Positions 2,355 to 38,516 of a stretch of DNA of 45,861 bases are shown here, in pieces (positions within the stretch are counted from its first letter, which is position 1; the number at the start of each line of letters is the position of its first letter). The position numbers were made by a program, and so were the translations under genes. Origin of the DNA: a virus. The stretch spans positions 1 through 45,861 of the IMG/VR virus record IMGVR_UViG_3300017605_000233. One strand, 5' to 3'. Under the pieces are notes generated by a model. The model ran no database searches. It was not told where the DNA came from and saw only the letters and a list, made by a program, of their open reading frames with translations.

Positions 2355-2999
2355 ATGGAAAATAACACTAGTATTAACACACAGTTAAACATTAGTAACA
2401 ATGATATTGTTACAATGCTTCTTGAAGAAAGAAAAGAGCTATTAAATAAAGAGATACATAGTCTTATAGCTCAACAAAAAGAAATTCTAGAACCTTATAT
2501 AGGTGTAATAGCCAATAAACTTACAGAGTTTTATACTTCTGATGAGTTCTTGTTCTTCAAGAGCAAATGTTATGAGTTTGCTAAACTTTACAATCCTAAA
2601 ATTGAGATTAAGATTGTTATTGGTAATGAAGAAACTCCAGAAGAACAAGTAAGAAAATTTCTTAGTTATTATCATTCATTTGATAGTAGAACTTTTTCTC
2701 CTGATTGTTTAGTTATACAAGCTGTAAATGATGATGATGAGGATAATATAGTTATGTACGATGAAGGAGATGGTCTTATTGCTTATCCTGCTCATTTAGA
2801 AAAAGAATTTAAACTTGAATTGTCAGAAGATGATAAATTAAGTATTAATACAATTAACAATAAGATTTCTCAATATGAAATAGAATTGAGAAATTCTAAT
2901 GGTATGAAAGACAAATTAGTAGCTAGAATGACTAAAGCAGCTATTATGAATAACCCTGATTTATTAGCAATTAGAGATAACGTATTAAAATTAGAATAA
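2355..2999 (+). CDS. hypothetical phage protein
   Basis: This 214-aa soluble protein has a helical N-terminal half (a Glu/Lys/Leu-rich coiled-coil-like stretch, residues 20-60), an acidic middle with a DDDED run, and a C-terminal helix. No family is recognised. It follows a terminator and starts a run of tiny tightly packed genes (3-4.5 kb). A hairpin (GTAACAAT/ATTGTTAC) lies at 2395-2413 inside the first 60 nt. Confidence 0.6.
   Translation: MENNTSINTQLNISNNDIVTMLLEERKELLNKEIHSLIAQQKEILEPYIGVIANKLTEFYTSDEFLFFKSKCYEFAKLYNPKIEIKIVIGNEETPEEQVRKFLSYYHSFDSRTFSPDCLVIQAVNDDDEDNIVMYDEGDGLIAYPAHLEKEFKLELSEDDKLSINTINNKISQYEIELRNSNGMKDKLVARMTKAAIMNNPDLLAIRDNVLKLE
2395..2413 (+). promoter_or_regulatory. 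start-proximal RNA hairpin
   Basis: GTAACAAT (2395-2402) pairs perfectly with ATTGTTAC (2406-2413) around a GAT loop, 41 nt into the coding sequence. Confidence 0.45.
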
Positions 3000-3001
3000 T
3001 C

Positions 3002-3220
3002 ATGAGTAAATCGAAGGAAGAATGGTTTAACACTCTAGAAGAGCCTTACAAAAGTAAGGCTCTTAAAAATTGTAAACCCCACTTGTTAAAGAGAGAAGAG
3101 AAAGATGTATTTGATGCTTTACAAGCAGGATTTACATGGTCAACCAGTCCTGAAGGACATAAATATTGGGAGACTTATTTTAAAACCCTAAAAAAGCAGA
3201 AGCATGAAAAACAGTTATAG
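3002..3220 (+). CDS. small hypothetical protein
   Basis: This 72-aa basic protein is rich in Lys, Trp and Glu (FTWSTSPEGHKYWETYF near the C-terminus). It begins 2 nt after the preceding stop. An exact 11-bp hairpin sits at 3039-3064. The protein is unrecognised but has the gene-like packing of its neighbours. Confidence 0.55.
   Translation: MSKSKEEWFNTLEEPYKSKALKNCKPHLLKREEKDVFDALQAGFTWSTSPEGHKYWETYFKTLKKQKHEKQL
3039..3064 (+). promoter_or_regulatory. strong start-proximal RNA hairpin
   Basis: AAGAGCCTTAC (3039-3049) and GTAAGGCTCTT (3054-3064) form an 11-bp perfect stem with an AAAA loop, 38 nt into the coding sequence. No T run follows (AAAAAT does), so this is not a classical terminator on the + strand. 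Confidence 0.7.
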
Positions 3221-3353
3221 AGAAACAATAGAGGCAGGTTATAAAAATCTGCCTAAATTAATCATAGCCTTTATTATTCTAATGGCTATTTTAGGGGCAG
3301 TAAATGCTATATTTAACTTCTTATATTCTTTAACACCATGCGTAAACAAGTAG
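3204..3353 (+). CDS. single-pass membrane microprotein
   Basis: This 49-aa ORF overlaps the end of the preceding gene by 17 nt. Residues 19-42 (from LIIAFIILMAIL onward) form one hydrophobic helix, giving a small membrane protein. A short stem AGGCAG/CTGCCT (about 3232-3254) lies near its start. Function unknown. Confidence 0.5.
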   Translation: MKNSYRETIEAGYKNLPKLIIAFIILMAILGAVNAIFNFLYSLTPCVNK

Positions 3354-3487
3354 CTGACCAAGAAAAGTGTAAGGAGTTTTGGTTACACAAAATTCACCCT
3401 GTAACAGGCTATGGAATAGCTGTTCAAAGAGATCCTAGAATAGGGATTAAAAAAAGAGATAAGTATAAAAAGGTTTCTAAAGATTAA
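3338..3487 (+). CDS. small basic hypothetical protein
   Basis: This 49-aa ORF overlaps the previous gene by 16 nt. It is strongly basic at the C-terminus (KKRDKYKKVSKD), with IHPVTGYGIAVQRDP in the middle. It is unrecognised and supported mainly by packing and continuity between neighbouring genes. Confidence 0.45.
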   Translation: MRKQVADQEKCKEFWLHKIHPVTGYGIAVQRDPRIGIKKRDKYKKVSKD

Positions 3488-3502
3488 CTTAAATAATTGA
3501 TT

Positions 3503-3661
3503 ATGGAAATTACTATAGGTCCTAGAACAAAGAAACATAGAGCTAAGGCAGCTATGTTAGATTTTCATGAATGGTTAGTTAAAATGAATAATATTCATCT
3601 TGCTGATATACAAAGAATGTCTATAGCATATCAAAAAGTTTATCAATCAAATATTAAATAA
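3503..3661 (+). CDS. small hypothetical protein
   Basis: This 52-aa ORF has an ATG after taattgattATG and ends 2 nt before the next start. It is basic at the N-terminus (GPRTKKHRAKAAM) and helical after that. Family unknown. Confidence 0.5.
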   Translation: MEITIGPRTKKHRAKAAMLDFHEWLVKMNNIHLADIQRMSIAYQKVYQSNIK

Positions 3662-8339: not shown

Positions 8340-8408
8340 GGGGGAGTTCGTCTAATGGTAGTGTGCGCTCTTAATTGAGAAATATAGGTTCGAATCCTAT
8401 ACTCCCCC
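8340..8408 (+). tRNA. tRNA-like element 1, degenerate, isotype unclear
   Basis: A GGGGGAGT/ACTCCCCC acceptor stem (8340-8347 with 8401-8408) and a perfect T arm (ATAGG, loop TTCGAAT, CCTAT; 8384-8400) are intact. A D-loop-like TAATGGTA lies at 8353-8360. The D stem does not pair well, and the anticodon region offers only CTC/GAG around TTAATT. The total is about 69 nt and no CCA is encoded. A Lys-like CTCTTAA loop is present but its stem fails. It is either a decayed tRNA or a tRNA mimic used for RNA processing. Confidence 0.45.
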
Positions 8409-12255: not shown

Positions 12256-14391
12256 ATGAAATTTGTAGAATTTAATCAAAAGATTCAAGAGCAGTTTGCT
12301 GTAATGTGTAAAACTGGAAAGCTATTCAGAAGCTCTATTAGTGGGCAAGAATTGTGGGATTTATATTTAGGAAGCTTTAAAACAGGGGATAACCCTGTTT
12401 TTAGAGACCCTGATAGCTCTCAACATAATGGTAATAATGATAATTCCTTTATGAGAAGATATGGGAATATTGTTGCTATTAATGAAAACAATGAAATTGT
12501 TTCAATGTTTGATCTTGTTCTTGAGGAAGACTCTAAGTATTGGTCTCCTGCATTAGTATTATCTGATAAATTGAAATTTGCTCCAATCAAAGATGTATTC
12601 TTTGAAACATTTGATGAACTGAAAAGTTTACCTTATGAATCTTGTAGTAAGAATCAAAATACATTTAGACTAGGAATAGCTTCTAATCACAAAATCTATA
12701 CAGAAGAAGAAGCTGCTATGTATGGTGTAGTGAAGGCAGGAGAGCTTTATACATTCAACCATTTCCATTTAGATTTACCTAAAGGGTTTGTAAATATGTC
12801 TGGAGCATCTGTGGAGTCTATTATGTCTAGCTATAGAGCTTCTAAGGAAGTATTTAAGAGAGGACTTGATGAAATCTCATTAGATACTTTGAATCTTGTT
12901 GTAGACCTTATTAATCAGGGTTCTTTATTAGACGGAGAAACCCATGTTAAGAAAGTAAAAGCTATGGCTATTCTTAAAGAAGAGTATGATAGACTACCAG
13001 CAAGTGTTAGAGATAATTGGTCTTGGGTTTCTAGTTATGATTTTCCTTTAGCTAGATTCAGAAATGAATTGATTGGTGTTCTTTGTGTAGAATTATCTCA
13101 AGGAGAAGAATTGAACAAAGCTTGTCAGAATTGGAACAAAAGAGTAGATCCTGCCAATTATATGAAAGCTGTTGCTCCTTTTACAGAGAGTCAAAAGAAA
13201 GCAGCTCTAAAAGTGGTTGAAGAAGGTGGCTACATGGATTCTTTCAATAGAAGACTTGCTACTATTGATGATATTAAGATTAGCGAGATTCTTCATAGTA
13301 ATGTGGGTGATGGTATCATTAAATCTACTACAATCTTTGATGGTCTTAAGTCTACCGCTTCTACAAGACATAAAAGAAGTGAATTTGATGGTGTAGAGGA
13401 AGTAACTATTGAGAAATTCATGAAAGACATTCTTCCAGGATGTTCATCTATTGAGGTGTTGGTAAATAACTCTCATGAAGGTAATATGGTTACTATGACT
13501 ACTGCTGAAGATCCAAATAGTAAACCTATGTTCAAATGGGATAATAACTATTCTTGGACATTTAATGGTAATCTAGCAGGTAAATCTCAAATCAAAGAAG
13601 AGGTTAAATCTAAAGGAGGTAAAGTAGATGGTGTTCTTAGATTCTCTATGATGTGGGCTGATGGTAATGGAGATAATTCTGACCTTGATTTACATTGTAT
13701 AGAACCTAATGGTTTTGAAATCTCTTATTTGGGTAGAGTAAGTAGTATGACAAAAGGCAATCTTGATGTTGATATTACAACTCCAGAAGGAGAACTAGCT
13801 GTTGAAAACATCACCTATCCTGAATTAGCTAGAATGGCTAATGGAACTTACAAATTGTTTATTAGACAGTTTATTGCTAGAAGTTCTAAAGGATTTAAAG
13901 CAGAAGTAGAGTTTAATGGAGAATTGTATTCTTATGAATACAACAAACCTGTAAGAGGAGATATTCAAATAGCTGAAGTAACCTTGAAAAATGGGGTATT
14001 TACTATTGTTCATAAACTTCCATGTACAGATGGTGTTGGTGTAAGTAAAGAAATCTATGGACTTGAAACTAATAAGTTCCATAAAGTGAATCTTGTTTGT
14101 TTATCTCCTAACCATTGGGGAGATAATGCTGTAGGTAATAAGCACTATTTCTTTATGATTGATGGTTGTAAAACTGAATCAGACATTAGAAGCTACCACA
14201 TAGAGAATCTAAATGCTGAACTAGCTGCTAATAGAAAGGTATTAGAGCCTCTAGCAGCTACAATCATGCTTAAGCCTGAGGATAAACAATTATCAGGGTT
14301 AGGGTTTAACCATACTGTTCTTGACACCGTTGTTTTAAGGTTATCTGGCTCTCATAAGAGAGTCATCAAAGTTAATTTTGGTCGTGTGTAA
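12256..14391 (+). CDS. large protein with C-terminal YfaP/DUF2135-like domain
   Basis: The 711-aa product has no signal peptide. The first 430 residues are mixed alpha/beta with no recognised motif. From about residue 460, SMMWADGNGDNSDLDLHCIE is followed by EPNGFEISYLGR, LDVDITTP and AVENITYP. This DLDLHV-x-EPNG and LDVD-x-TP arrangement is that of the YfaP (DUF2135) beta-sandwich found near VWA and stress-response genes. It may bind or sense a ligand with the VWA/ATP-grasp block. The last 14 nt overlap an HNH endonuclease gene, and a terminator-like hairpin lies at 12379-12401. Confidence 0.6.
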   Translation: MKFVEFNQKIQEQFAVMCKTGKLFRSSISGQELWDLYLGSFKTGDNPVFRDPDSSQHNGNNDNSFMRRYGNIVAINENNEIVSMFDLVLEEDSKYWSPALVLSDKLKFAPIKDVFFETFDELKSLPYESCSKNQNTFRLGIASNHKIYTEEEAAMYGVVKAGELYTFNHFHLDLPKGFVNMSGASVESIMSSYRASKEVFKRGLDEISLDTLNLVVDLINQGSLLDGETHVKKVKAMAILKEEYDRLPASVRDNWSWVSSYDFPLARFRNELIGVLCVELSQGEELNKACQNWNKRVDPANYMKAVAPFTESQKKAALKVVEEGGYMDSFNRRLATIDDIKISEILHSNVGDGIIKSTTIFDGLKSTASTRHKRSEFDGVEEVTIEKFMKDILPGCSSIEVLVNNSHEGNMVTMTTAEDPNSKPMFKWDNNYSWTFNGNLAGKSQIKEEVKSKGGKVDGVLRFSMMWADGNGDNSDLDLHCIEPNGFEISYLGRVSSMTKGNLDVDITTPEGELAVENITYPELARMANGTYKLFIRQFIARSSKGFKAEVEFNGELYSYEYNKPVRGDIQIAEVTLKNGVFTIVHKLPCTDGVGVSKEIYGLETNKFHKVNLVCLSPNHWGDNAVGNKHYFFMIDGCKTESDIRSYHIENLNAELAANRKVLEPLAATIMLKPEDKQLSGLGFNHTVLDTVVLRLSGSHKRVIKVNFGRV
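12379..12401 (+). promoter_or_regulatory. terminator-like hairpin inside the 5' part of a gene
   Basis: AAAACAGGG (12379-12387) pairs over 9 bp with CCCTGTTTT (12393-12401) around GATAA, with the T run inside the stem. It sits 124 nt into the 711-aa gene and looks like a bidirectional or attenuating terminator. Confidence 0.6.
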
Positions 14392-14944
14392 AGCAATAGA
14401 AATAGTAACAGGAACTAAGTATGGGAGATTAACTGTAGTAAGAGAAGGTCCTATACATAAAAATCCACAGGGAAAACCATGTAGAAAAGTTATTTGCACT
14501 TGTGAATGTGGTAAAGAAGTTACTGTTTTTTGGGGTACTTTAAGAAATGGTAGAACCAAATCTTGTGGGTGTTATATGAGAGAAGTAAATGGAGAAAGAA
14601 TAGGAAAACAATCTAGAACTCATGGTAACACTCCAGTAGGAGATAATGAATTTAAGTCTTTATACTTTGTATGGAATTCTATTAAGCAGAGATGTTATAA
14701 TAAAAAATCGGAAAAATATCATGTTTATGGTGGAAAAGGAATTAAAGTATGTGAAGAATGGATTCATGATTTTTCCAAATTTAGAGATTGGGCAATATCT
14801 AATGGTTACTATAAACAATCTAAAACCACTCCTTTTAAAGAAAAGCTTTCTATTGACAGAAAAGACCCTGATCAGGATTATACTCCTGAAAATTGTAGAT
14901 GGATCACTATAAGTGAGAATTCATCTAGAAGGCATAATAAATAA
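14378..14944 (+). CDS. free-standing HNH homing endonuclease (AP2/HNH type)
   Basis: This 188-aa ORF has the layout of phage HNH selfish genes: a GRLTVV beta start, a Cys-rich zinc region (CTCECGKEV ... SCGC), YGGKGIKVCEEW, and the nuclease end LSIDRKDPDQDYTPENCRW. Such enzymes cut a recipient locus so that their gene is copied in. The frame opens at TTG 14378 inside the preceding gene; GTG 14384 is an alternative, and the first ATG falls only at residue 71. The start is therefore uncertain and the gene appears to have been inserted against the 3' end of its neighbour. Confidence 0.8.
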   Translation: MVVCKAIEIVTGTKYGRLTVVREGPIHKNPQGKPCRKVICTCECGKEVTVFWGTLRNGRTKSCGCYMREVNGERIGKQSRTHGNTPVGDNEFKSLYFVWNSIKQRCYNKKSEKYHVYGGKGIKVCEEWIHDFSKFRDWAISNGYYKQSKTTPFKEKLSIDRKDPDQDYTPENCRWITISENSSRRHNK

Positions 14945-18963: not shown

Positions 18964-18977
18964 ATTTGAATGAAGAT

Positions 18978-19310
18978 ATGGAAAATAAGATTTGCAAGAA
19001 ATGCTTTGAATCCAAACCTATAGATAGTTTTTATAAAACAAATTCAGGTAACCCAGGAGGTACATGCTCTTCTTGTATAGCCTTATATCAAAAGGAATAC
19101 AGAAAGCAAAACATTAAAAGAATTAGAGAGCTTAACAAAGCCTATAAATCTAGACTTAAAGGGGAGGAGGTAGAAAAACCTAAGAGATACAGAAGTAGTA
19201 AGTATTGTAATATTATAGGCTGTTTAGAACACAAAGGTAATTTCTATGGATTCCAAGACTATTGCAAGAGTCATGCTTTTGATGTACTAAATAAAGTTGT
19301 AGATGTATAA
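18978..19310 (+). CDS. Zn-ribbon / HNH-like N-terminal protein
   Basis: This 110-aa basic protein has CKKC (residues 5-8) and CSSC (about 29-32) separated by DSFYKTNSGNPGG, then KEYRKQNIKR, and later C/H residues (CNIIGC, YCKSH). The N-terminal pattern equals that of the tandem proteins at 32444 and 32679 and of DNA-binding Zn ribbons attached to HNH enzymes, but no HNH residues are visible. The ATG at 18978 is chosen over an in-frame TTG at 18966. Confidence 0.6.
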   Translation: MENKICKKCFESKPIDSFYKTNSGNPGGTCSSCIALYQKEYRKQNIKRIRELNKAYKSRLKGEEVEKPKRYRSSKYCNIIGCLEHKGNFYGFQDYCKSHAFDVLNKVVDV

Positions 19311-32443: not shown

Positions 32444-32692
32444 ATGAAAACATGTACAATTTGTAAAATTGAAAAATCTTCAAAAGAATTTTATAAAGAT
32501 TCAAGAAACAAAGATGGATATAATTCTAATTGTAAAGAATGTACAAAAAAAGCCACTTATGAAAGATACAGTAAAACTAAAGAAGATCCTGTAGCTTATA
32601 AATTTCACTTAGAAAGAATAGCCTTTTATAAAAGGAATAAAATCATGAAAGACAATACAAAGAATAATAAGGATAATTATGAAAACATGTAA
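32444..32692 (+). CDS. small zinc-ribbon protein, paralogue A
   Basis: This 82-aa basic protein has CTICKIEKSSKEFYK (4-18), DGYNSNCKECTKKA (24-37). The CxxC...CxxC spacing with EFYK between is the Zn-ribbon seen at the N-terminus of phage HNH/endonuclease VII-like proteins, without a nuclease part. The next gene is a close tandem copy. A small hairpin CAATTT/AAATTG lies at 32457-32471. Confidence 0.65.
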   Translation: MKTCTICKIEKSSKEFYKDSRNKDGYNSNCKECTKKATYERYSKTKEDPVAYKFHLERIAFYKRNKIMKDNTKNNKDNYENM

Positions 32693-32900
32693 AATATGTA
32701 AAGAAGAGAAAGAATTAGAGGAGTTCTATAAGAATGGAAAAGCTAAAGATGGTAGAAACTCTTATTGTAAAGAATGTGATAAGAAAGCAGCTAAGAAAAG
32801 ATATGAAACTATTAAAGCTGATCCTGAATTGTGGGCTAAAGAGATTAAAAGAGTTGCTGGTTATATGAGAGCTATGAGGCAAAAAAGAAAGGGGAAATGA
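32679..32900 (+). CDS. small zinc-ribbon protein, paralogue B
   Basis: The 73-aa product has CKICKEEKELEEFYK (4-18) and DGRNSYCKECDKKA (24-37), directly parallel to the previous gene (identical spacing), so the pair arose by tandem duplication. It overlaps paralogue A by 14 nt. Very basic C-terminus (RAMRQKRKGK) suggests nucleic-acid binding. Confidence 0.65.
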   Translation: MKTCKICKEEKELEEFYKNGKAKDGRNSYCKECDKKAAKKRYETIKADPELWAKEIKRVAGYMRAMRQKRKGK

Positions 32901-33314: not shown

Positions 33315-33606
33315 GCAATTAGAAGTAGGGGATGAAATCATTATCTCCAGTTATAGTGATTTAAAGTATATGAGGATTCTACAAAAGCCTGGAAGAAGTA
33401 AAACTAAAAAACACTGGAAGACAGGAGACCCTGTGTGGAAAGATGTTAAGTGTGCTATTCATAAAAAGAAGTTTACATGTGAGCATACAGGAAGAATTTG
33501 GGAAGGATTTGATTGTAACCCTGAAGATTTAAATACTACAATCTATAAAGATTTAACAGGAAGAGATATATGGTTAGTTAAAAAAGGAAACTATGATAAT
33601 AAATAA
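33298..33606 (+). CDS. small basic hypothetical protein
   Basis: This 102-aa (MRVSIEQLEVGDEIII start) beta-rich N-terminus is followed by Lys-rich KTKKHWKTGDPVWKDV and a Cys pair. Three in-frame ATG codons (33286, 33289, 33298) are possible; 33298 minimises overlap. Its stop overlaps the start of rIIA by 14 nt. Unknown role. Confidence 0.5.
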   Translation: MRVSIEQLEVGDEIIISSYSDLKYMRILQKPGRSKTKKHWKTGDPVWKDVKCAIHKKKFTCEHTGRIWEGFDCNPEDLNTTIYKDLTGRDIWLVKKGNYDNK

Positions 33607-33956
33607 CACATCAGATGTAAAAGTACTTTCAGATGGGCAATCCAATGAATCTATTGGAATGCAATTAGATATGGATTCAGCTCATATTCTTATGACTATG
33701 TTAAGCAAGAATCTATATTCAGATTCTATAGGAAGTACAATTAGAGAAACAGCAAGTAATGCTTTAGATTCTCACAGAAGAATAGGTTCTGATAAGCCTA
33801 TTATTGTAAAATTTGGTACTAACTCTCAAAACAACTATGAGTTTAGTGTAGAAGATTTTGGTGTAGGATTGGATGATAATGATATAGAGAATATTATTAG
33901 TAAATATGGAAAATCTACTAAAAGAGATTCTAATATAGAACTTGGAGCTTTTGGGT
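33593..33956 (+). CDS. rIIA: rIIA-like GHKL ATPase, exon 1
   Basis: These are the first 121 codons of an rIIA-like protein. The GHKL ATPase fold is visible: N box RETASNALDSH (Asn/Asp near 56-59), G1 box DFGVGLDD (about 89-96) and the beginning of the G2 lid LGAFGL (117-122). Without splicing the frame ends at TAG 33962. Joining to 35144 restores GAFGLGFKSPLAYT and gives 767 residues (364 + 1,940 nt). T4 RIIA protects against RexAB-type exclusion. The product is probably cytoplasmic and paired with rIIB downstream. Confidence 0.85.
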
Positions 33957-35143
33957 TAAACTAGGAGTTAATTGATTAGGGTATTAATATCTTTTTATTT
34001 ATATTTATGTTCAATTTTAAATAAAAGTAAAATGGACTATAATAATGAATTTAGAGAGATTGATACAGAACAAAAAGCATATTTCTTGGGTTTTATGTAT
34101 GCAGATGGTTGTATTAGTATGATAAAAAGTAAAAAATCTAACTATATAAAACCTCAAGTACAAATTAGTCTTGCAGATGAACAAGTGATAAATGATATTC
34201 ATAAGTTTTTTCCCTTTTTTAATTTACAAATTTTTGATTTTAGTAAGTATAATAAGAAACATAGTAAACAATTTGCTTTAAGAAAAGCAAATAAGTTATT
34301 ATTTGAGGATCTACAAAATCATGGTTTATTAGAAAGAAAAAGTGGAGAAAATAGTTCATTTTTAAGAATACCTATATTAAACCTCAATCTAGTATCTCAT
34401 TTTATAAGAGGATATTTTGATGGGGATGGTAGTATTAATATAGCAGCTAAAAGACCTAATTTAAGAAGAGTAGAAATATGTTCAAGTTCAAAAGAATTTT
34501 TATTACAAATAAAAAATACACTAGAATATTTTAATATTAGTTGTCCAATTTTTAGAGAAAAATTCAATAATAAAAGTCCTTTATATGTTTTGGAGTGGGT
34601 TAACTCTAAAGATATATTAAGTTTAAAAGAATTTCTCTATAAAGATTCCACTATTTGCCTTATGAGGAAAAAAGAAAAATTTGATTCTTTTAAAATAATA
34701 GACAAAAAGTATTCAAATCCTCATTGTCCTAAATGCTTAGAAAGAAAAACAAGAAAATCAGGAAAAAGACAAATGAAACATGGATTAATGTTAAGATTTA
34801 GCTGTACAAATTGTAATAATAAATTTTCAATTCCAGCCCAAATAAAACAGGATGAATTGTCTGGGAAGCCCTATGAGGGTAATCAGCAGCCAAGCTTAGA
34901 TAGTAATATCTTTGAAGGTTCAACGACTAATAGCCAAATCCCACCAAGTGATGTTGAGGATGGTAATGCTAACACGAGCGTCCTGCCTATTGTTATAGAA
35001 ACAGATAAAAATGGAAATCCATTAGTATCTATTTCTTTAAAGATAATTGATATTAATAACAATAGTGATGATATAGTCTGAACTATGCGTATATATGAAG
35101 GCATAGAATCTAAGGATAAAGAGCCTTAGAGATAACAAAATCG
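33957..35143 (+). other. group I self-splicing intron in rIIA
   Basis: This 1,187-nt insert interrupts the G2 codons of rIIA. The 5' site follows T at 33956 and the intron ends in G at 35143, as group I introns require; frame is restored. Core elements: AATCAGCAGCCAAGC (34881-34895), GGTTCAACGACTA (34917-34929) with P7 GACTA pairing TAGTC (35074-35078) in GATATAGTC. Candidate P1: exon TTGGGT (33951-33956) with GTTCAA (34009-34014). The core contains several CpGs, rare elsewhere. Boundaries are predicted to within 2-3 nt; exact sites need RNA. Confidence 0.85.
34032..35081 (+). CDS. LAGLIDADG homing endonuclease (intron-encoded)
   Basis: The 349-aa product has two LAGLIDADG motifs: YFLGFMYADG (17-26) and HFIRGYFDGDG (123-133), the monomeric two-repeat form. 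A C-terminal CxxC...CxxC zinc knuckle (HCPKCLERK and SCTNCNNK, about 231-265) follows. The frame then continues through the intron's catalytic core to TGA at 35079, so the last 70 residues are probably ribozyme sequence read as protein. An in-frame TTG at 33972 exists; ATG 34032 fits the leader better. The enzyme should cut intronless rIIA at the GAFGLG codons. Confidence 0.85.
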   Translation: MDYNNEFREIDTEQKAYFLGFMYADGCISMIKSKKSNYIKPQVQISLADEQVINDIHKFFPFFNLQIFDFSKYNKKHSKQFALRKANKLLFEDLQNHGLLERKSGENSSFLRIPILNLNLVSHFIRGYFDGDGSINIAAKRPNLRRVEICSSSKEFLLQIKNTLEYFNISCPIFREKFNNKSPLYVLEWVNSKDILSLKEFLYKDSTICLMRKKEKFDSFKIIDKKYSNPHCPKCLERKTRKSGKRQMKHGLMLRFSCTNCNNKFSIPAQIKQDELSGKPYEGNQQPSLDSNIFEGSTTNSQIPPSDVEDGNANTSVLPIVIETDKNGNPLVSISLKIIDINNNSDDIV

Positions 35144-37083
35144 TGGGATTTAAATCACCTCTAGCTTATACCAGTAGTTTCTATTTTATCTGTAGAAAAG
35201 ATAATATAGAGAGAAAGTATATGATGTGTGAGGGGGAGAATGGTAATACTATTGATTTACTATTTGAATGTGTAACTCCTGAAGAGAATGGGGTTAAGAT
35301 TGTTGTTCCTGTAGAATATAAGGATAGACATACCTTTAGTAGTAAGATAAGAGAACAACTTTCTTATTTTGAGAATGTTTATTTTGAAGTAGATGGAATA
35401 GATAATGAGTTTAGTATTCTAAGGGAAGAGGATTTTCAGATATCAGATCTGATTACAAGTGGTAATATGCATATCTGTTTAGATAATGTCTACTATCCTA
35501 TAGATTTTGATAAACTAGGTATTAAGAGTATTCCTATTGGTATAGGGCTTAGATTTAGTTTATCAGATGGGCTATTTCCTACTCCTTCAAGAGAGAATCT
35601 AATCTATTCAGGAAACACTAAACAGATTATTCTAAATAAGATTAAGAAAGTTAGTGAGTTCTTAGTTAATAGATATAATGAGAATATGACGGAATGTGAA
35701 GACATTAAAGAAATCTTTGAATACTATAAAGAATTCTCTAAGTCAATAACTATTAACAATTATAAGTTCTCTTTAGATGGTATTTTACCATATACAGATG
35801 TTAAGATAAATAAGCCTAAACTGAAGAATGTAGAAAAGCTTGATTTGAAGCATTTGTATAACTATAGAGAAAATCTAATTTCAGAATATAAGGTTACTCA
35901 TAGAATCTATAATTACAGTATAAGTGGTATTAAGCATCATGGATATAGTAATTATTTGAAAGAACAAAACTTTCCAATGAAAAACATTTATGTTTATTCT
36001 GAAGAAATACCTTTCCTGAAAAAAGAGTATTTAAAGACTATAACTAAAGGTGAGTGCTTTCTTGTAAAGAAAATCTTTAGTTATAAATTGTTTAAAAGAG
36101 CTCTAGGGTTTGAATCTTTAGTTGAATTATTAGATTTAAGAAGACATCCTAGAAAAGACTGGAGAAAGGTTATTCAGGAATTTCAATACATTCAGAATGT
36201 TTATACTAGTCAATTCCATAATGTAGATCTTATAGAACCTACTACAGAATGGTTGGAAAGTAGAAAGAAACAAAGAGTTTATAATTATACAGGAAGAAAA
36301 CCTAAAGTAACAGGAGAAGTAAATTGTAAGTTTGCTAAGCCTTTACAAAGATCTAATGGAGATAGAAACTGTAAGTTTGAAGCAGGTATTTTAAAACTAG
36401 AAGGATTACATAAACAACCTAAATTATTTGTGTATTCAAAGCATGATGATTTTCTTAACCTAGATAAGTTATTTAATACTGATGCTGCAAGTTGGGATTA
36501 TACTAAAGCTAAGAATAAAGAAATATTACGTTTATTAACTGTATCTCCACAGGAGCACAAGAAACTAGAACAATTGAATATTCACAATCTAATCTCATAT
36601 GAAAAGTTTATGGAAGGGGATAACAAAGTTTATAGAAGAATAGTTACAGCTCAATTAGTAAGAAAGTTAATGAGTGCTAATTCTAAATTGTTTGAAAACT
36701 TAGATGTAATCAAACCTCTTAGTTTGTCTTTGTATGATAAACTAATTAAGTTACAAGAGTACAAGAAAGAAAACTATTATCATATGGATTCTACTGTATT
36801 TGGAGCTATGTTACAAGTTGCAGAAGACAAAAATCTATTTGACCATGAAATCTATTCTGAATATAAAGAAATAGAAGCCTTACTAGGTAAATTCAAATTC
36901 TTGGATATTCTAATAGGAAAATTCAATAAACATGGTTCTGATAAACTAGATCTTAATATTATTCTAATTGATTTGTTTAAATATCATAAGTTTAAACTCG
37001 ATTTACAACATTATAGTCAGCCTACTTCTGTAGTAGATAATGTAGTAACAGATGAGGAGATTGATGAGATTTTAAATGCTTAA
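35144..37083 (+). CDS. rIIA: rIIA-like GHKL ATPase, exon 2
   Basis: Continues rIIA from the second half of its G2 glycine motif: GFKSPLAYTSSFYFI, then a transducer-like region with IGIGLRFSLSDGLFPTPSREN (a typical GHKL middle domain element) and a long helical C-terminal part. Total spliced length is 767 aa, near T4 RIIA (725). A terminator follows at 37088-37109 and rIIB follows that. Without splicing this half has only GTG 35143 as start and would lack the ATPase N-box. Confidence 0.85.
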
Positions 37084-37139: not shown

Positions 37140-38516
37140 ATGAAAAACAAATTTCTAAGTTTACAATGGTTTAAAGAGAAGTTGCACATTAAAAGTAAGA
37201 AGGAAAAAGAAGTAGAGGTATTTAATGAATTTAGAGAAAAAATTATAGAAGAAAACAAAAAGAGATTATTTAAAAATATTAAATTAATTAATTCTTCTTT
37301 AACAATTGTACTAGATGATGGATCTATTCTAACTAAACCTGAAGCTACAGAAGAAGACTATAATAAATGTATGACAGCTCTTTCTTTACATGAAATTAAA
37401 TCTATTATTTCTGATGAAGTACATAAGCCTTTACCTAAGAAAGAAGAAGAACCAACAATAACCATTGAAGAAGTAAAATCTATTCAATCAGGGTTTGACA
37501 CTCTTAAAGGACTGTCAGATTTTGAAATCTATGATGATATAATTTATTGGGGAGGAATTAAAAGAAGTGTTCCACAGCAATTAGTGGAAGCTATCTGTAA
37601 GCTTGTAGATAATAGTGGTAATCCTTTAGAACAAGTAGACCTAGATGTACATGAAGGTTATTTATCTCTGAAGAAATTCTGGTTGAAATGCTGTCTTAAT
37701 CCTAATGCTCAATCAGCAGAAGATCTGTATACATTCTTATATCATCACAAATTCAAAATTGATAGACATGGAAACTTCTATGCTTATAGAAGAGTGAAAA
37801 GTGTACACAAAGATCCTGTTGATAAGGAATTGATGGAGTTTGTCAGTAATAGCTATACAAAAGTGAAAGCTGTATGGAAATACAATCCAAAGAGTTTCTT
37901 TGTAGTGAAAAAAGAGGATGAATCTTTAGGTATTATCAAGGAGAAGGATCTTACTAAGACTAAGCATACAATATTGGGTAATCTAGCTACAATGTATCTA
38001 GACATAACTAATACACCAGGTCTTCAATATACTTCAGCTCATACAGGTAGAGAAGACTATAGAATTGGAGAAGTTATCAGTATGCCTAGAAATCTAGGAG
38101 ATGATAATAACAATGTTAGTTGTTCTACAGGATTCCATGCTGCAAGTAAGAAATATGACTATTCAGGATTTGGTGATGTTCCTATTCTTATGATTATTAA
38201 TCCTACTGATGTATTAAGCGTACCAAGAGGAGAAGTTGGCAAATTAAGAACTTGTAGATGGTATTTTGCTTGTGTACTTGATGAAAAAGAAAAATTTATA
38301 CTAGATGAAGAACATTTTGATGTTACAGACTTAGGAGATAACTTTGAAGAGAAGATTCAGGAAAATCTAGAAGAGCATGTTGCTCAAGGTATTGCTGAAG
38401 AGATTGAAAGACATAGTTTTTATGTTCCTAAAATCTCTGAAGGTGAAATTAAGAAAATTGTCACCTCTCTAGAGAAAATGAAATCTACTATTAATTCTAG
38501 AGTAAAGAAAATCTAA
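37140..38516 (+). CDS. rIIB: rIIB-like protein
   Basis: This 458-aa protein has an early VLDDGSILTKPEATEEDY, a middle FLYHHKFKIDRHGNFYAYR (about 204-222) and the key region CSTGFHAASKKYDYSGFGD (about 334-352) followed by ILMIINPTDVLSVPRGEVGKLR and CRWYFACVLDE. This is the order of T4 rIIB-like proteins. The long N-terminal extension makes it larger than T4 RIIB (312). Adjacent rIIA supports it. Confidence 0.85.
   Translation: MKNKFLSLQWFKEKLHIKSKKEKEVEVFNEFREKIIEENKKRLFKNIKLINSSLTIVLDDGSILTKPEATEEDYNKCMTALSLHEIKSIISDEVHKPLPKKEEEPTITIEEVKSIQSGFDTLKGLSDFEIYDDIIYWGGIKRSVPQQLVEAICKLVDNSGNPLEQVDLDVHEGYLSLKKFWLKCCLNPNAQSAEDLYTFLYHHKFKIDRHGNFYAYRRVKSVHKDPVDKELMEFVSNSYTKVKAVWKYNPKSFFVVKKEDESLGIIKEKDLTKTKHTILGNLATMYLDITNTPGLQYTSAHTGREDYRIGEVISMPRNLGDDNNNVSCSTGFHAASKKYDYSGFGDVPILMIINPTDVLSVPRGEVGKLRTCRWYFACVLDEKEKFILDEEHFDVTDLGDNFEEKIQENLEEHVAQGIAEEIERHSFYVPKISEGEIKKIVTSLEKMKSTINSRVKKI

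Follow-up and report, generated by a model that had tools for sequence, protein, structure and literature searches.

The rIIA gene of an uncultured virus is very probably interrupted by a mobile, self-splicing group I intron of 1,187 nt, located at positions 33957-35143 of the stretch analysed here, a 45,861-base fragment from IMG/VR that is called the window below (the intron, its gene and all their features lie on the plus strand). The intron, its exact junctions, its structure, its empty alleles, the family of its endonuclease and the overlap of that enzyme's reading frame with the ribozyme are all read from the sequence. The host of the phage is likely a member of the Bacteroidota, because the PolA of the window is nearest, at ~30%, to various phages, crAss-like ones among them.

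Removal of the 1,187 nt joins exon 1 (33593-33956, 364 nt) and exon 2 (35144-37083, 1,940 nt) as 768 codons with no internal stop, as an earlier note on this DNA had described, and in the unspliced frame a TAG stop is located three codons inside the intron (33962-33964). The spliced protein matches RIIA of PHROG 612 over residues 1-671 (1.3e-62), exon 1 being assigned by PHROG 612 and by its P1 pairing. The N-terminal GHKL HATPase domain of RIIA is present with its G1 and G2 boxes, and the Pfam match HATPase_c_3 (PF13589, 1.5e-6) straddles the exon junction. The intron is placed in the G2 box, in the codon after the second glycine (G-A-F-G-[T^TG]-G-F-K-S), where exon 1 ends GGA GCT TTT GGG T^ and exon 2 starts ^TG GGA TTT AAA TCA; G118, G121 and G123 are invariant in the rIIA alignment A1. 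The earlier note's further idea, that splicing would become essential for an anti-exclusion protein, gains no support from this analysis, and T4 can do without its rIIA on ordinary hosts.

The splice sites are ambiguous by one nucleotide, positions 33957 and 35144 both being T, and 33957-35143 was chosen as the intron because this choice provides the U.G pairing and a terminal G (35143). The internal guide of 7+7 bp is positioned at 34829-34842, inside the endonuclease frame at the codons I-P-A-Q. Its P1 half GCCCAAA (34836-34842) forms 7 bp with UUUGGGU of the 5' exon, with the U.G pair at the splice site, and its P10 half AATTCCA (34829-34835; AAUUCCA as RNA) forms 7 bp with UGGGAUU of the 3' exon, so that all the marks of group I splice sites, namely U.G at the 5' site, terminal G, P1 and P10, are found. 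When the guide was confined to the stretch before P3, none of the 2,223 other junctions within rIIA matched this score, and the same null for the rIIA intron of phage cr116_1 gave 0 of 2,100 junctions as good. An unrestricted guide search over the whole intron is not significant alone, with 65 of 2,243 junctions reaching 14 bp. During splicing, this guide would align both exons for self-excision.

The covariance model RF00028 covers 34782-35094 with 54.8 bits (E 7.6e-13, gathering 50). A scan of the whole window at the Rfam gathering threshold missed the intron, evidently owing to speed filters, and a scan of short stretches recovered it. More generally, default-filter scans of whole contigs miss introns with an ORF in the P1 loop, and stretches of 1-1.5 kb recover the window intron (33900-35250) but not the rIIA introns of the IMG/VR contigs L009 and L015 described below. 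The P, Q, R and S elements and the helices P3-P9 of a group I core were identified, and of the two sequences that the earlier note had picked out as core sequences, GGTTCAACGACTA (34917) is the R element and GATATAGTC (35070) the S element.

Alignment of 12 related cores (A3) showed that every helix is kept: P3 (5' strand 34848-34854, 3' strand 34979-34985), P4 (34858-34863/34883-34888), P5 (34868-34871/34876-34879), P6 (34889-34891/34917-34919), P6a (34895-34902/34907-34914), P7, P7.1 (34931-34934/34968-34971), P7.2 (34938-34941/34958-34961), P8 (34987-34991/35061-35065) and, together with the intron 3' end, P9 and P9.1 (35083-35143). Over the 55 pairs tested, 98.1% of the cells are paired and 29 pairs carry changes on both sides; this level of pairing is equalled in 0 of 500 shuffles and collapses when slid. 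Compensatory changes are found in 4/7 pairs of P3, 6/6 of P6a and 5/5 of P8, while the P7 strands GACUA (34925-34929, in R) and UAGUC (35074-35078, in S), also placed by the RF00028 alignment, are invariant in the 12 cores. The native structure was not obtained from a single-sequence fold of the core. Two hairpins between P7 and P3 (P7.1 and P7.2) are 100% paired over the 12 cores and suggest an IA-type or IA-like intron. Furthermore, the intron 3' end (35070-35141) is 85% identical to that of the polA intron of cr116_1 (L001 6001-6071), which points to an exchange of intron parts between genes. The P3-P8 core would catalyse the two transesterifications that lead to full-length RIIA.

Uninterrupted rIIA was found in 80 IMG/VR relatives by an alignment query; a single-protein query returned no matches. 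These intronless alleles are possible targets of the endonuclease, and together with the covariance match, the guide pairing and the compensatory changes they bear out the earlier note, which placed a group I intron at the glycine motif G2. An assembly error, an intein or a free-standing endonuclease insertion instead of an intron is extremely improbable, even if relatives such as L024 have free-standing LAGLIDADG genes: translation without splicing would soon meet a stop, neither exon is in frame with the ORF, the guide pairing is strong, the ribozyme covaries, and the arrangement is common to four independent records. A decayed insertion, that is, a non-splicing intron in an rIIA pseudogene, would suit a metagenomic record known from its sequence alone, but it is very unlikely, as no damage is seen in the core helices, the guide, the terminal G, either exon frame or either LAGLIDADG motif.

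The intron encodes in its P1 loop a LAGLIDADG homing endonuclease of 349 aa (34032-35081, counted from ATG; an in-frame TTG is located at 33972), which matches Pfam LAGLIDADG_3 (8.9e-15), LAGLIDADG_1 (7.9e-8) and PHROG 4645 (7.8e-37). Both motifs carry their acidic residues (ADG and DGDG): in motif 1, YFLGFMYADG (34080-34109), L19, G20, D25 and G26 are invariant in 16 relatives, and motif 2, HFIRGYFDGDG (34398-34430), is nearly invariant in them. A C-terminal zinc ribbon CPKC...CTNC (34725-34814), evident in the sequence and formed by confident strands in the model, is shared with the endonucleases of L009, L015 and L010. In the AlphaFold model, residues 1-271 have a pLDDT of ~90 and residues 272-349 mostly <50, and the predicted folded part therefore stops where P3 starts. 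Foldseek matched LAGLIDADG enzymes, including the endonuclease/maturases I-AniI and bI3. The LAGLIDADG and zinc-ribbon enzyme would cut intronless rIIA at the G2 box, and repair of the cut allele would copy the intron in.

The endonuclease frame does not end with the folded part. It remains open through the guide, P3, P4, P5, P6, P7, P3', and P8 with its enlarged loop, and reaches a TGA directly after P7, so that a tail predicted to be disordered (34845-35081, residues 272-349, ending DDIV-TGA, GAT ATA GTC TGA) is encoded by the core. Endonuclease and core share 234 nt from P3 to P7, and the guide additionally. The extension of such ORFs into core helices has been described as "core creep" (PMC3073962; also PMC3984707), and the largest of the overlaps tabulated is 81 nt (PMC3073962). 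The overlap in the window, the largest between an endonuclease and a ribozyme in the literature searched, would be an extreme case of this process, in which loss of stop codons would extend the endonuclease frame through guide and core to the stop after P7.

Frames that run through the core recur in a small clade of phage introns. Read-through to the stop after P7 is also found in the dUTPase intron of p-crAssphage (HNH enzyme gp35) and in the IMG/VR contigs L157 and L295; the ORFs of cr50_1 and cr1_1 stop inside P8. A frame-neutral DNA pattern (R element plus P7.1) retrieved 24 IMG/VR stretches, most of them open in the tail frame and fused to an upstream LAGLIDADG or HNH enzyme, and a further copy of the core occurs in a Bacteroidales MAG (L317). 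Upstream of the open tail frame in L303, L308, L315 and L317, an intact in-frame endonuclease is absent. HNH and LAGLIDADG fusions often share the GTC-TGA endpoint and others stop earlier. Under core creep, endpoints should vary from invasion to invasion, yet several fusions end at DDIV-TGA, partly because the S element supplies the stop there. As enzymes of two families, HNH and LAGLIDADG, extend into one core in this clade, core creep and the cost of translating a ribozyme become testable together.

Whether the tail itself matters was judged from the way its sequence changes. That residues 272-349 are functional, through maturase-like binding of the ribozyme or extra DNA contacts, with the core frame kept open by selection, is rather improbable. 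Most cores of this class are indeed open in the endonuclease frame and fused to a LAGLIDADG or HNH enzyme, and the nearest folds include endonuclease/maturases. However, differences in the shared core fall on the three codon positions as 1958:2185:2112, with no third-position excess, and constraint at the protein level is consequently not apparent there. The openness from R to S is weak evidence by itself, because another frame is open in about as many cores; the exception is the long P8 inserts, which hold 0 stops in the endonuclease frame before the ORF end while the other two frames contain 21 and 36. Shuffles give each insert's openness a probability of 0.03-0.17, and Fisher's method, applied by hand to five less related inserts, gives ~0.004. 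The inserts of the window and L303 are also alike as proteins, with 6, 2 and 8 changes by codon position, the second position being the rarest. This openness, confined to the endonuclease frame, hints at more than drift. Against a function of the tail stand, besides the codon-position counts and the second open frame, its predicted disorder, the early stops in L211, L212, L301, L306 and L312, and the enzymes of the same lineage in cr116_1, L009 and L015, which do without it. Our reading is that the core frame appears to be open and used, with the encoded residues little constrained. The wider proposal of an intron clade of Bacteroidota phages with a dual-coding core, in which unrelated endonucleases share a tail that affects the cognate ribozyme, either directly or through being translated, is likewise of low probability; if true, splicing of the host gene would be coupled to production of the endonuclease.

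With core creep, a single RNA could not be translated into the enzyme and fold as a ribozyme at the same time. In T4 td, early translation of I-TevI reduces splicing, and a late intron-internal promoter together with a hairpin resolves this conflict (PMC2988022). In the window, TATATTTA (34000-34007), upstream of the endonuclease start, is a possible intron-internal promoter, one mismatch from TAnnTTTG, the consensus of the Bacteroidota -7 box (PMC7366714). Ten of 15 related introns have an exact TAnnTTTG no more than 70 nt ahead of the endonuclease start, against 1.4 expected and 0 of 1000 shuffles, which suggests an intron-internal promoter ahead of the endonuclease, although the box of the window is inexact. 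Translation and folding are probably kept apart in this manner, as in td. The overlap might instead serve as a switch, in which translating ribosomes melt the ribozyme, delay rIIA splicing and so time RIIA; the effect of early translation in td and the far longer overlap here, 234 nt where td has 20 nt (PMC3073962), would be consistent with this. Nevertheless, it is unlikely, since an importance of RIIA timing in this phage is unsupported and a separate promoter that avoids the conflict is simpler.

The G2 box of rIIA has been entered more than once. Introns in it were also found in cr116_1, whose GenBank record annotates an intron-encoded endonuclease in rIIA, and in L009 and L015; the four introns, with that of the window, occupy three positions within a span of 7 nt. 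The cr116_1 intron (GGT GGG T^TT GGC; RF00028 80.8 bits) lies 6 nt upstream of the window site. Those of L009 (GGT^ATA; guide GACCTAT|GCCGAAT, 7+7 bp) and L015 (GGT^ATT; guide CCAAT|GCCGA, 5+5 bp) lie 1 nt upstream of it, with P7 strands GCATA/TATGC instead of the GACTA/TAGTC of the window. Related LAGLIDADG ORFs interrupt rIIB in three relatives of the window phage, L004 (2683-3830), L005 and L006, with P7-like GCATA/TATGC motifs; rIIB of the window (37140-38516) is intact. RF00028 gave no match to the introns of L009, L015 (rIIA) and L004 (rIIB), and their group I class is therefore less certain, the evidence for it being short core motifs and, in those introns that show it, pairing of a guide. 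Published reports of any rIIA intron were not found in the literature searched.

In an IQ-TREE phylogeny of 64 endonucleases, the four rIIA enzymes, the three rIIB enzymes and that of L010 form one clade (97/88), and the ribozyme cores differ among the introns of this clade. In 4/4 rIIA introns the guide falls within the final codons of the enzyme body (I-P-A-Q in the window, M-P-S-S in cr116_1, P-M-P in L009 and L015), and for this reason endonuclease and guide may move as one unit, the core behind them being the part that changes. One endonuclease lineage would thereby return to the G2 box with different ribozymes. The earlier note had argued that so conserved a box is a durable homing target. 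The recurrence of insertion by one endonuclease lineage supports this part, and the box is probably a recurrent homing site; the conservation has a limit at the DNA level, as ELG-x-[MF]-GLGFK is nearly fixed as protein in the 80 relatives and the site DNA follows the protein in its conservation, wobble positions being variable. As a repeated landing site of one endonuclease lineage with different ribozymes, the ATP-binding box of rIIA lets the assembly of mobile introns be seen directly.

Several other loci were observed. In L024, a relative of the window phage, an apparently free-standing LAGLIDADG gene (2815-3624) is flanked by two helicase genes, one of them DnaB-like. In the window, a 188-aa ORF with a TTG start (14378-14944) overlaps the preceding gene and resembles free-standing phage homing-endonuclease-like proteins (SIDRKDPDQDYTPENCRWI); Pfam and NCBIfam gave no match to it. 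Small Cys-rich CxxC...CxxC ORFs are present at 32444-32900 and 18966-19310, with a tandem pair just upstream of the rIIA region. An Rfam tRNA match at 8341-8408 (33.5 bits) has an irregular-looking anticodon arm, and ARAGORN gives no call there.

Among known systems, the closest is the rIIA intron of cr116_1 (NC_055882, Pamirivirus faecium, crAss-like), likewise of group I and inserted at the G2 box, with a LAGLIDADG ORF in L1 and the guide in the ORF's last codons; its endonuclease is the best match of the window enzyme among 50,697 phage records. It differs in its site 6 nt upstream, in its core and in an ORF that ends before P3. The dUTPase intron of p-crAssphage (Carjivirus communis) has a core ~77% identical to that of the window over ~150 nt and an ORF that also runs through the core to GTC-TGA, whereas its enzyme is the HNH protein gp35, its host gene encodes dUTPase and its P8 is short. 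Exon 1 of T4 td ends UUGGGU^U, as does exon 1 of rIIA in the window. In td, too, the endonuclease ORF overlaps core structure, but I-TevI is a GIY-YIG enzyme encoded in L6 and the overlap is the 20 nt given above (PMC3073962). The core-creep examples of the same study resemble the window in that their endonuclease ORFs reach core helices, over <=81 nt compared with the 234 nt from P3 to P7 plus the guide. Finally, I-AniI and bI3 are among the nearest solved folds to the window enzyme; they are fungal mitochondrial LAGLIDADG endonuclease/maturases with 16-18% identity to it, and unlike it their solved chains have no core-encoded tail.
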